Positions 32,253 to 36,390 of a DNA stretch of 64,000 nt are shown here, piece by piece. The notes below the pieces were generated by a model. That model was not told the origin of the DNA and searched no databases. It saw only the letters and a program-made list of their open reading frames with translations. The DNA is from Haemophilus parainfluenzae (GTDB lineage Bacteria; Pseudomonadota; Gammaproteobacteria; Enterobacterales; Pasteurellaceae): positions 1,090,501-1,154,500 of the forward strand of contig NZ_UGHY01000002.1 in the NCBI RefSeq assembly GCF_900450995.1, written 5' to 3'. A program made the position numbers and the translations under genes. The stretch's first letter is position 1. Each line of letters opens with the position of its first letter.

Positions 32253-32279
32253 AAAAGCCTACATATGTAGGCTTTTATT
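32253..32279. terminator. Terminator after potE
   Basis: AAAAGCCTACAT directly followed by ATGTAGGCTTTT (32253-32276) is a perfect 24-base palindrome that can stop transcription from both potE and the convergent res gene. Confidence 0.85.
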
Positions 32280-32282
32280 CTT

Positions 32283-34568
32283 CTAGATATGGTGTTCCAA
32301 TGGCTGCCAGCGTTCATCTGACATATCATCAACATATTCCGTATTATTTAAATAAAGTTCGCCGTCTTTATCGCGTATAAAACCAAATTTGTAGCCGTGT
32401 TTTTGGCAAAAATCTTGTAGGGCATTAAATTTCACTTTGGCATGTTTGTCGATATTTTTATCTTGTCCGTTGGCTTGCTCGCCACCTTTGGTTTCCAGTA
32501 ACCACGTCGCGCCATCTTGAGTTTGTACGATGTAGTCAGGGAAAAATAAGCGTTGTTTACCAAATTGGGTGGTGTAAACGATGGAAAGATAATTTTGTCC
32601 GGAATCACCGTTTTTATACACATATTTCACATTGGAATTTTGCTCGCAGCTACGTTCAAAAAGACGTTCACTTGTGGAACGCAATATTCCGGCAATCATG
32701 GCAAAGTTGTAATCATGATAAACATTGCGGTCTAATAGTTTTTTTTCTTTTGCCAGGCTGTCAATGGGATACATTTCCTCAATCGGGATAGAAAATTTTT
32801 CGAGTCGAATTTGATTATAATCACCTAAATTTAAATTGTGCTGTGCTTTAGAGGAGAAAGAAGTAAAATCCATAAAAAGCGTTTTAAATTTATTCACATT
32901 ATTAATAATAAACGCATAGAAATTTTTCAATGAAAGATGAAGTAATTTAAATTTTGGCTCGCCGGCATCTTTTAAGAAATAAATTTCGAGTAGCTGTCGC
33001 GTTTTCTCATAACTTAATCCGGTATATTTTTTCAAGCTATCAATATGATGGCGTAAATATAAACCATGATCGTGTGTATTTACCCCATATTGCATACTTT
33101 TTCCTTGATAATGTGCTGCTTCTTCCTGAATTTTCTTCAAAGTTTCGAATCGGCCTTCTAAATAATGGGCTTCAAGGTAAGAATGCAGTTTAAAGCCTTG
33201 ATTTTCGAATCGTCTTTCATTTTCTTTGCTGTCATCGGTGAGTTTGTATTTTTCTTTAATGAAAGAAAAAAGTTGTTTTCTGACCGCACTTTCATCGCCA
33301 AAATCCGCATCTTTATCGCGCAGTTCTTTTTTCAGCTCAATACCTTTCGGTTCATCTTTCAGCACAACACGTTTATATTCTGCGCCAAGATGATTGCCGG
33401 TGACTTCATTTTTGTAGTCTTCATCAAAGGTATAAAGATAAGAACAGTCAAGAATATCTCTGCCATAATGTTTTGCATTTGGCATGCGACGCAAGCGTCC
33501 AAGCGTTTGAATTTCAAAGGTTTCGGACATATTTTCACGCAGTTTCACCAACACTTTGGCGCGAGGACAATCCCAACCAGTGGCAAGGGCTTGCTTAAAT
33601 AATAGGAATACGGGTTCTGCGTTATTGTGGGTAACGCTGTCCTTGGAATGAACTTCACCCACATTAATTTTGCCTAGCTTTTTGGATTTGCGTTGTTTAT
33701 CTTGCGTATTTTCCTCGCTCATCCATTTAGCGACTAGTTTGTTTTCATAGGTATAGCCCATATCCGCCAATTGTTTCTCCACAAATTCGATTAATTCATC
33801 ATTAAGATTTGGGAATTGAATCAGCACTAAAGGACGAATATCTTCGTTTTCCTGCAAATATGCTGTGGCAATTTCTTTTCTGATTTCATTGGCTTTTTTT
33901 AATAAAAGAGTTGTCTCCGTTTGAATATTTTCCATGGTTTCTGCATTGAGATCTTTATTGATATACATGGCGCGTGTAATTAATCCTTCATTAATCACAT
34001 CCACTTCATCAATTTCATAGAAGACAGCCTTTTTATTTTGTGCTGGTGTGGCAGAAACGCGAATTTCATAATTGGCATTGATGGCATCAATAATATCATT
34101 GGCTTTTGCGGTATTATTAAGATGTTCCTCATCAATAATCACAATGAATTGTTTGTTATTACGATGTGCATCAGCAATATGTTGCTTGATATTTTTACGC
34201 TCACTATCTTTTAAGGCTAAATTGCCTTTTTTCGTAATGGTTTTCCAGTTGATAAAATAAGTTGTACCACACTCAAAACCTTGATTGAGTACATCAGTAA
34301 TATTACCGGTTGGGAGCGTAGGAGAAAATCGTTCCATTTTTTCCTTTGACTGTTCTTCTAAATCGCCTTTACCTACAGTAAACCAACAAAAAATAGTATT
34401 AGGATAGTTGAGTAAATAGTTTTCAATGTAACTAATTAGAATAATAGTCTTACCGCTTCCAGTAGGACTCTTTACAATAATTTGTTGTTGTTTATGTTGT
34501 TCTATGGTTTTTTCTAATAGGAAATCAACAGTTTGTTGTTGGAAATCTTTTAATTGAAGGTTGATCAT
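32283..34568 (-). CDS. res: Type III restriction endonuclease, Res subunit
   Basis: ATP-dependent helicase and nuclease that works with the Mod subunit to cut DNA carrying unmethylated sites in head-to-head pairs. The 761-residue protein has Walker A SPTGSGKT (34-41), DEEH (146-149), SATPAQ after it, a second RecA-like half with LATGWDCPRAKVLVKLRE and QTLGRLRRMP, and a C-terminal nuclease site PD-X13-ETK (Asp678, Glu692, Lys694). It is shorter than EcoP15I-type Res (about 970). Its ATG overlaps the mod stop as ATGA, so translation is coupled. Accessory, likely horizontally shared. Confidence 0.92.
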   Translation of the reverse strand: MINLQLKDFQQQTVDFLLEKTIEQHKQQQIIVKSPTGSGKTIILISYIENYLLNYPNTIFCWFTVGKGDLEEQSKEKMERFSPTLPTGNITDVLNQGFECGTTYFINWKTITKKGNLALKDSERKNIKQHIADAHRNNKQFIVIIDEEHLNNTAKANDIIDAINANYEIRVSATPAQNKKAVFYEIDEVDVINEGLITRAMYINKDLNAETMENIQTETTLLLKKANEIRKEIATAYLQENEDIRPLVLIQFPNLNDELIEFVEKQLADMGYTYENKLVAKWMSEENTQDKQRKSKKLGKINVGEVHSKDSVTHNNAEPVFLLFKQALATGWDCPRAKVLVKLRENMSETFEIQTLGRLRRMPNAKHYGRDILDCSYLYTFDEDYKNEVTGNHLGAEYKRVVLKDEPKGIELKKELRDKDADFGDESAVRKQLFSFIKEKYKLTDDSKENERRFENQGFKLHSYLEAHYLEGRFETLKKIQEEAAHYQGKSMQYGVNTHDHGLYLRHHIDSLKKYTGLSYEKTRQLLEIYFLKDAGEPKFKLLHLSLKNFYAFIINNVNKFKTLFMDFTSFSSKAQHNLNLGDYNQIRLEKFSIPIEEMYPIDSLAKEKKLLDRNVYHDYNFAMIAGILRSTSERLFERSCEQNSNVKYVYKNGDSGQNYLSIVYTTQFGKQRLFFPDYIVQTQDGATWLLETKGGEQANGQDKNIDKHAKVKFNALQDFCQKHGYKFGFIRDKDGELYLNNTEYVDDMSDERWQPLEHHI

Positions 34569-36292
34569 AGTTCACCCGCCTCAATAAGTTCATGTCTAAA
34601 ATAATATTCAGGAATTTCAATCAGTGTAGCTTGCTTTTTTGCAACTAAGGCATTTTGTGCACGAGAAAGTAATACATAAGGTGCAATAAAAAGTCGGGCT
34701 TTTATTGGTAAATTCTCATTCAGTACTGCATCTAATTCCGATTCATTTTTGACGAGAATATTATGCACACCATCAATTTCACACATATACTCCAACTCAA
34801 TAAGCTCCTTGATGTAATCCATCAGTTGCACTTTTAAAGTTCGGTCATTTTCATCAAGTTTTTTAATAAAGTCGGTTTTGAAATATTTCAGATTATGTGG
34901 TAAGTCTGCTTGAATGTTTTTTAGTCGTTGATAAGTCACCTCTTCGCAAATATTATTTTCATTATTGGTACAAAGAATATATTGGCGATTTCTACCGTCC
35001 TCTTTATTCAGTTGTGTGACGGCGTGTCCTGTTGTACCAGAGCCAGCAAAGAAGTCGAGAACTATTTCGCATTTTGTATGCTCAAGTAAGTATTTTATTA
35101 ACTCAATCGGTTTAGGGTTAGAAAAAATATCTTTTTCATTGAATATTTTTGTAAGGAGCTTTGTAGCAGTACCAGTCTCAGCTAAGTCGTATAAAATACT
35201 TCTACTTTTTAATATTTTTATTTGATTTTCATTGTAAAAACTCATCTCATATGGAATCCAACGATTCTCTTTTTTGTCTTTTATCCAATGAATATGATTA
35301 TTTTTGATTAAGTTATGTAATCTTTCTTTTCCTACTCTCCATCTGCCATCCTTTTTATCAGGTGCAATAGGATAAAGATTATTTCCATCTGGATCTTTAA
35401 TTGGAAAATACATGGTTGGTCGATCTTCTTTATGTGATGAACTTCCCCATTTCTCCAATTTAGTAATTTTATATAGTGAACCATCAGAGGATTTATATTT
35501 GTATTCGTTTTGGTCAATTTTTTCATGTTTATCATTCCAAATAAATTGAGTTGATTTTCTATATCCAAATATATATTCATGTTCCGTTACAAAAAACTCA
35601 TCAGTTTGTCCCCCTCCTGATTTTTTTCTCCATATCATTGTCCCTATAAAGTTATTTTCTCCAAAAATTAAATCACATAATAACTTTAATTGGGCAAATT
35701 CATTTTCATCAATCGAAATAAAAATAACACCGGTTTTACTCAATAAATTTCGAGCAATCTCCAATCGCTTACTCATAAAAGAAAGCCACTTAGAGTGTGT
35801 ATAACCATCATTTTTATCTATATAACAGTCATCATAGATGAAATCTTTATTGCCGGTGTTATAGGGAGGGTCGATGTAGATGACATCGATTTTATTGCGG
35901 TGAGTTTTTTCAAGAAGTTTTAAAGAATGGAGATTATCCCCTTCAATTAGGAAATTAAATTTTTCATAATCTTGCTGGACAATCGCTGGACAATCGCTGG
36001 ACAATCGCTGGACAATCGCTGGACAATCGCTGGACAATCGCTGGACAATCGCTGGACAATCGGATGTGGTGATTTTACGTGTCGTATCTTCAACAAAAAC
36101 AGGAATATGCTCTTGTAGCATTTCATCCACATGCTCGGAATGTTCTTCCCATACTAAGCCGTATTTTTTATTTAATAGTGCATTTTCAATTTCGTTGAGT
36201 GCAATAATTGACTCATCGTCAGAATGAGTTTGCTTAAGTGATTGCAAAAAAGAGAGCATTTTTTCCCTTTTTTTCTGTGATAAATTTGCCAT
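34565..36292 (-). CDS. mod: Type III DNA methyltransferase Mod, with phase-variable repeat
   Basis: Adenine-type methyltransferase that gives sequence specificity to the type III system. The 575-residue protein has DPPY (141-144) before FAGSG (415-419), the beta-class order, with the target recognition region between them. AAGGA precedes the ATG at 36292. Residues 78-107 are encoded by eight copies of an 11-base repeat and read as a cycle of SDCPAIVQRLS. In this sequence the frame is open from start to stop, so the gene is predicted to be ON. Gain or loss of a single unit shifts the frame. Confidence 0.92.
   Translation of the reverse strand: MANLSQKKREKMLSFLQSLKQTHSDDESIIALNEIENALLNKKYGLVWEEHSEHVDEMLQEHIPVFVEDTTRKITTSDCPAIVQRLSSDCPAIVQRLSSDCPAIVQQDYEKFNFLIEGDNLHSLKLLEKTHRNKIDVIYIDPPYNTGNKDFIYDDCYIDKNDGYTHSKWLSFMSKRLEIARNLLSKTGVIFISIDENEFAQLKLLCDLIFGENNFIGTMIWRKKSGGGQTDEFFVTEHEYIFGYRKSTQFIWNDKHEKIDQNEYKYKSSDGSLYKITKLEKWGSSSHKEDRPTMYFPIKDPDGNNLYPIAPDKKDGRWRVGKERLHNLIKNNHIHWIKDKKENRWIPYEMSFYNENQIKILKSRSILYDLAETGTATKLLTKIFNEKDIFSNPKPIELIKYLLEHTKCEIVLDFFAGSGTTGHAVTQLNKEDGRNRQYILCTNNENNICEEVTYQRLKNIQADLPHNLKYFKTDFIKKLDENDRTLKVQLMDYIKELIELEYMCEIDGVHNILVKNESELDAVLNENLPIKARLFIAPYVLLSRAQNALVAKKQATLIEIPEYYFRHELIEAGEL
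35974..36061. repeat. Eight tandem copies of an 11-bp unit inside mod
   Basis: The unit GCTGGACAATC is repeated exactly eight times without mismatch (88 bases). On the coding (minus) strand it reads GATTGTCCAGC. It lies in the 5' part of the mod frame, so copy-number change by slippage would switch the gene. Eleven is not a multiple of three; in-frame copy numbers are 5, 8, 11 and so on. Confidence 0.98.
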
Positions 36293-36390
36293 TTATACAT
36301 CCTTAGGGTAAAGAAAATTAATTTATAAGGTGTCTGGTATCATAGCGTAAAATATATGGCTTTTCGACTACGCTTTATTAAAAACTTGGC

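Follow-up and report, generated by a model that had tools for sequence, protein, structure and literature searches.

Among described systems, those closest to the locus reported here are Type III DNA methyltransferase (mod) genes in which the copy number of a tandem repeat acts as a switch. The modA gene of Haemophilus influenzae and Neisseria combines a 4-bp AGTC or AGCC unit with many recognition-domain alleles, and its phenotypes and regulons have been published (PMC5149525). The same design is found in modB, modD, modM and the mod gene of Pasteurella haemolytica, and the Type III mod units in the table of a 2016 review are homopolymers or 4–5 bp long only (PMC5149525). Pentanucleotide versions, with CACAG in P. 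haemolytica and GAGCA in Streptococcus suis modS, belong to the same gene class and follow the same logic. A REBASE survey counted repeats in 17.4% of mod genes (Atack 2018, as cited in PMC7394358).

The mod gene analyzed here shares with modA both the switchable repeat and the variety of recognition domains, but its unit is an 11-mer as called by TRF rather than an AGTC or AGCC array, and it is known from sequence alone. It looks like a switch of a known kind, set apart by the unusually long 11-bp unit. The literature searched yielded no description of an 11-bp mod repeat, although the 2018 REBASE survey, represented in that literature by citation, may already list the family. Our analysis makes it very probable that a Type III restriction-modification (R-M) system is frame-switched at this locus through changes in the copy number of the 11-bp repeat.

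The repeat array and its host genes

The window, i.e. the whole 64-kb stretch of DNA that was analyzed, contains the following features (positions are those of the window):

32277..36390, no strand assigned: mod-res block, between what we take to be potE-like and rseC-like genes
32283..34568, minus strand: res, Type III restriction subunit, 761 aa, apparently complete, with a ResIII helicase domain
34565..36292, minus strand: mod, Type III DNA methyltransferase, 575 aa, ON at 8 copies
36062..36292, minus strand: N-terminal part of Mod, codons 1–77, upstream of the array and mostly helical in the model
36130..36132, minus strand: alternative ATG in frame +1, which would join the mod frame only at 1, 4, 7 or 10 copies, judging by the frame table
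35974..36061, minus strand: 11-bp array of 8 perfect tandem copies, unit GATTGTCCAGC on the coding strand, mod codons 78–106
35858..35872, minus strand: DPPYN, residues 141–145, presumably catalytic motif IV
35099..35623, minus strand: variable target-recognition region, residues 224–398, exchanged between alleles
35036..35050, minus strand: FAGSG, residues 415–419, presumably the SAM-binding motif

An earlier sequence-only reading had reported eight perfect tandem copies in the 5′ part of mod, and both points were confirmed. A script located eight perfect copies of the forward-strand unit GCTGGACAATC at 35974–36061 plus one further base, TRF called 35974–36062 with period 11, 8.1 copies and 100% match, and the codons concerned (78–106 of 575) fall within the first fifth of mod. 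The same script found no further perfect array of units of 4–40 bp and at least three copies in the 64-kb window. For units of 4–20 bp, the longest lag-match run divided by unit length reached 7.09, vs. a maximum of 3.5 in 100 dinucleotide shuffles. Exact two-unit matches in the window's own genome numbered seven, all within the array. The unit is free of stop codons in every frame, and all three frames encode the 11-residue cycle DCPAIVQRLSS. A GC content of 39.5% and 41 copies of the 9-mer AAGTGCGGT in the window are in keeping with a Haemophilus-type member of the Pasteurellaceae, without narrowing it further.

The reading's assignment of the gene as a Type III mod is supported by matches to Pfam N6_N4_Mtase (PF01555, 1.5e-38) and PADLOC MTase_III (5.3e-170), by sequence matches to Mod chains in the PDB (6k0w, Mbo45V 7dsu and EcoP15I 4zcf), and by the best fold match, the EcoP15I Mod (E 1e-29, TM 0.54). 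EcoP15I and Mbo45V Mod are among the top fold matches and share the Type III Mod fold, but identity in the fold alignments is 22–25% and TM-scores to the query are only 0.46–0.54. The gene has the layout of a Type III Mod, with DPPY preceding FxGxG, a central variable recognition region, and an adjacent res with a ResIII helicase domain; the DPPYN and FAGS columns were invariant in 48 sequences. Identification of the product as a Type III modification methyltransferase is thus supported, and site-specific methylation is predicted. A PF01555 search found no second such gene in the window's genome. The start of res overlaps the mod stop by 4 bp (ATGA), and its product matches ResIII (PF04851, 3.9e-16) and REase_III (best 9.5e-19). 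We take SPTGSGKT to be its Walker A motif and the C-terminal PD...ETK to be endonuclease-like.

In an AlphaFold2 model of Mod (mean pLDDT 82.3), the array-coded residues 78–106 nearly coincide with a stretch of pLDDT < 50 (residues 80–108) that separates the N-terminal helices from the catalytic core. As the repeat peptide falls in this low-confidence loop, in-frame changes in its length should be tolerated by Mod.

Scans for other signals returned six terminator-like sites vs. 2.9 in shuffles, including a 10-pair stem at 32253–32276 in the gap between the potE-like gene and res and a weak 5-pair stem within mod just after the array (35929–35941). The promoter scan gave 20 sites vs. 17.7 in shuffles and was not used, and Rfam at the gathering score had no match in 28–42 kb.

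Copy number, reading frame and natural variants

By frame arithmetic, 2, 5, 8 and 11 copies yield Mod proteins of 553, 564, 575 and 586 aa, whereas 3, 6, 9 and 12 copies lead to a stop at 96, 107, 118 and 129 aa, and 1, 4, 7 and 10 copies to one at 83, 94, 105 and 116 aa. This bears out the claim that mod is ON at eight copies and OFF at seven or nine. The locus has the sequence hallmarks of an SSR phase-variable gene: an array inside the reading frame, a unit length not divisible by three so that copy number toggles the frame, and a copy number that varies among natural sequences (2 to 9 in 21 sequences).

Gain or loss of a single 11-bp unit, most likely through slipped-strand mispairing in replication, would shift the reading frame. 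Long loops escape mismatch repair. With 2, 5 or 8 copies, full-length Mod would be made and the repeat peptide of 7, 18 or 29 residues tolerated as a flexible linker; at other copy numbers, translation would end after 83–129 codons and Mod would be lost. Res, whose gene overlaps mod, would be expected to fall silent too. In Type III systems Res depends on Mod for its activity, so that modification and restriction should disappear together in an OFF cell, and harmlessly. We infer that switching would be reversible within a clone and would change methylation, with effects on a regulon, gene expression or phage defence. The open res makes a role in turning R-M on and off no less likely than a phasevarion. 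According to a passage of a 2025 review, the link from R-M phase variation to gene expression lacks clear demonstration, and phage resistance may have driven phase-variable R-M systems (PMC11868660).

At 1, 4 or 7 copies, a shortened Mod might be made from the alternative ATG, which would turn the switch into one with three states. P0105 (Aggregatibacter aphrophilus NJ8700) starts with the same peptide, MWMKCYKSIFLFLLKIRHVKS, as the product of this ATG. An active product from this start is thought unlikely, because the invariant residues between Y44 and E68 are missing.

Natural variants were collected from a protein search, of which the best 120 of 7996 matches were considered, from a second search using residues 1–106 as query (38 matches) and from a genome scan; the resulting counts do not amount to a full inventory. 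Copy numbers were read from peptides rather than DNA, save for the window and a genome of another genus (G128). Among the 21 usable sequences, no copy number between 2 and 9 is missing and all three frames are represented, with 13 sequences in frame and 8 out of frame:

2 copies: P0006
3 copies: P0126
4 copies: P0124, P0125 and P0105 (alternative-start form)
5 copies: P0001–P0005, P0007, P0015, P0017, P0018 and P0020
6 copies: P0121 and P0123
7 copies: P0122
8 copies: the window and P0014
9 copies: genome G128

These counts leave out P0127 (degenerate unit), P0128 (changed unit, fragment), P0131, P0132 and P0155 (garbled or chimeric frames), and P0158 (garbled, with no repeat left). The frame-toggling variation in repeat number that had been proposed is strongly supported by the natural lengths of 2 to 9 in all three frames; the outcome named as speaking against it, exactly eight copies in all strains, is not what relatives display.

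Seven short OFF peptides have precisely the predicted lengths, namely 94 (P0124, P0125), 96 (P0126), 105 (P0122), 107 (P0121, P0123) and 118 aa (G128). Another seven open reading frames without a start (P0008–P0013, P0118), counted apart as they could in part be mis-called starts, begin inside the array and run on into an intact Mod, which is what OFF copies should look like; their first codon is TTG in the window, and P0010 is listed with L, the others with M. Full-length and start-less forms can have identical tails (P0002 and P0008; P0003, P0010 and P0011; P0004 and P0013; P0006 and P0012), and P0014 and P0020 share a tail at eight and five copies, respectively. Between the window (eight copies) and P0001 (five copies), there is no difference over the 469 residues downstream of the array.

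Could the lengths differ mainly through recombination, or because mod alleles of another length are imported by natural transformation, rather than through slippage? Such an origin would contest the mechanism only, with the on/off consequence remaining the same. It draws on the exchange of recognition domains between alleles, on the 41 copies in the window of the 9-mer AAGTGCGGT, which presumably has a role in DNA uptake, and on the high identity of the mod 3′ end and res to those of another genus (91.8%, vs. 78% for trmA). Yet the unchanged 469 residues despite unequal copy number are explained more simply by a local change, and in another genome (G109, see below) the block is no more alike (69%) than trmA (75%). 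We therefore hold recombination or import to be unlikely as the main source of length change, and slippage to be the better account.

It is highly improbable that the array is a static polymorphism or an assembly error, with no hypermutability and with OFF copies that are dying genes or miscounts. The length variants do stem from different database entries and species, largely as proteins, and assemblies can miscount repeats. However, the OFF-type forms retain fully open downstream halves, G128 also has an open res, the eight copies of the window and the nine of G128 come from assemblies of two contigs each, and peptides from all three frames occur at the predicted lengths. Hardly credible, finally, is the idea that the repeat works chiefly as a linker in the protein, adjusting Mod-Res or Mod-Mod contacts through its length, with frame loss as a by-product. 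In its favour, in-frame repeat peptides of 7, 18 and 29 residues do occur, and their place is between the N-terminal part of Mod and the core; yet out-of-frame lengths are frequent (8 of 21) and alleles P0021, P0037 and P0040 do without the repeat. A copy-number-driven frame switch remains our preferred reading.

Recognition-domain alleles and genomic setting

The two ends of Mod are conserved among the compared alleles, with 82–100% identity to the window's protein over residues 1–77 (leaving aside G128 and P0105, which lack most of this part) and 88–98% over residues 399–575. Because identity over residues 224–398 drops to 22–29% in P0014, P0015, G128, P0105, P0021, P0037 and P0040, at least four recognition domains occur together with the repeat, i.e. 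the window type, P0014, P0015/G128 and P0105. Two further domains, that of P0021 and that of P0037/P0040, are found without it; these three proteins have TTSHSQQ or TTSNSQQ at the repeat's place.

Of 10 congeneric genomes, seven lack the mod-res block, their potE-like and rseC-like genes being separated by about 70 bp; in the remaining three a different sequence adjoins the rseC-like gene. No close mod turned up in these 10 genomes, the best match having an E value of 9.8e-53 and 41% identity. The gap between the rseC-like and potE-like genes is an insertion hot spot.

In G128, mod-res adjoins a gene that we take to be cmoB-like. Compared with the window at the DNA level, 2.75 kb comprising the mod 3′ end and res are 91.8% identical, the mod 5′ part 84.8% and trmA 78%; because the block is more alike than trmA, this suggests transfer of mod-res between genera. 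G109, a Pasteurella oralis metagenome-assembled genome, gives no sign of transfer, with 69% identity for the block and 75% for trmA.

In the congeneric genomes G074 and G081 (L063 1938–7580 and L064 2057–7700), the rseC-like/potE-like gap holds other cargo, presumably peptidase-like, transporter-like and dipeptidase-like genes, and about 3.6 kb further on part of the rseC-like 3′ end occurs a second time. The second contig of the window's genome, 4.2 kb long, contains a cation-transporter segment (L047 2727–3815) whose identity to plasmids of many genera is about 98%; the matches to named plasmids cover about a quarter of the contig and correspond to a metal-transport segment common to many genera. 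No match was found among viral contigs.

Unit length across the family

Two exact tandem units occur in only 2 of 140 family genomes (one of them the window's), which makes the array rare among representatives of species; in the collection of named genomes, where entries close to the window may be missing, a single record has them. To place the unit length, 30 mod loci were sampled, one each from 30 of the 74 matching family genomes including the window's. An array of at least four units was present in 17 and absent from 13, and the units of these 17 loci were of 5 bp in 12 cases, 7 bp in one, 8 bp in one and 11 bp in three. That the 11-bp unit is unusual, as the sequence-only reading had remarked, is supported by this preponderance of 5-bp units (12 of 17) and by the homopolymers and 4–5-bp units of the 2016 review table. 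The three 11-bp arrays all lie 101 bp before DPPY, the 12 5-bp arrays 277–431 bp before it (one 1330 bp). The 7-bp array comprises 12 copies 120 bp before DPPY in the mod homologue of G092 (L045 2446–2530), the 8-bp array 13 copies at 424 bp in that of G033 (L022 846–950).

In the related mod of P. oralis (G109), the third of the 11-bp cases, the array consists of 7.7 perfect copies of another 11-mer, GCGAACAGCGA, out of frame and at the same 101-bp distance as the window's array. A search for a second ladder of lengths, built on this unit, gave one near-identical cluster, P0159, among the 120 matches listed. It is conceivable, if quite doubtful, that the length of 11 bp rather than the unit sequence is selected, giving a lineage of switches in which the sequence turns over and the length persists. 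If so, searches for short units can miss 11-bp switches. Such switches may be overlooked, because searches for phase-variable genes often set their cut-offs by short unit types; a Campylobacter study using PhasomeIt speaks of 1, 2, 4 and 5 bp at one point and of 'longer repeat units' elsewhere.

Within one gene family, nature offers every copy number from 2 to 9 along with at least four recognition domains, so that the effects of unit length can be tested in a single system: on the rate of switching, on its dependence on repair, and on the biology of turning restriction-modification on and off.
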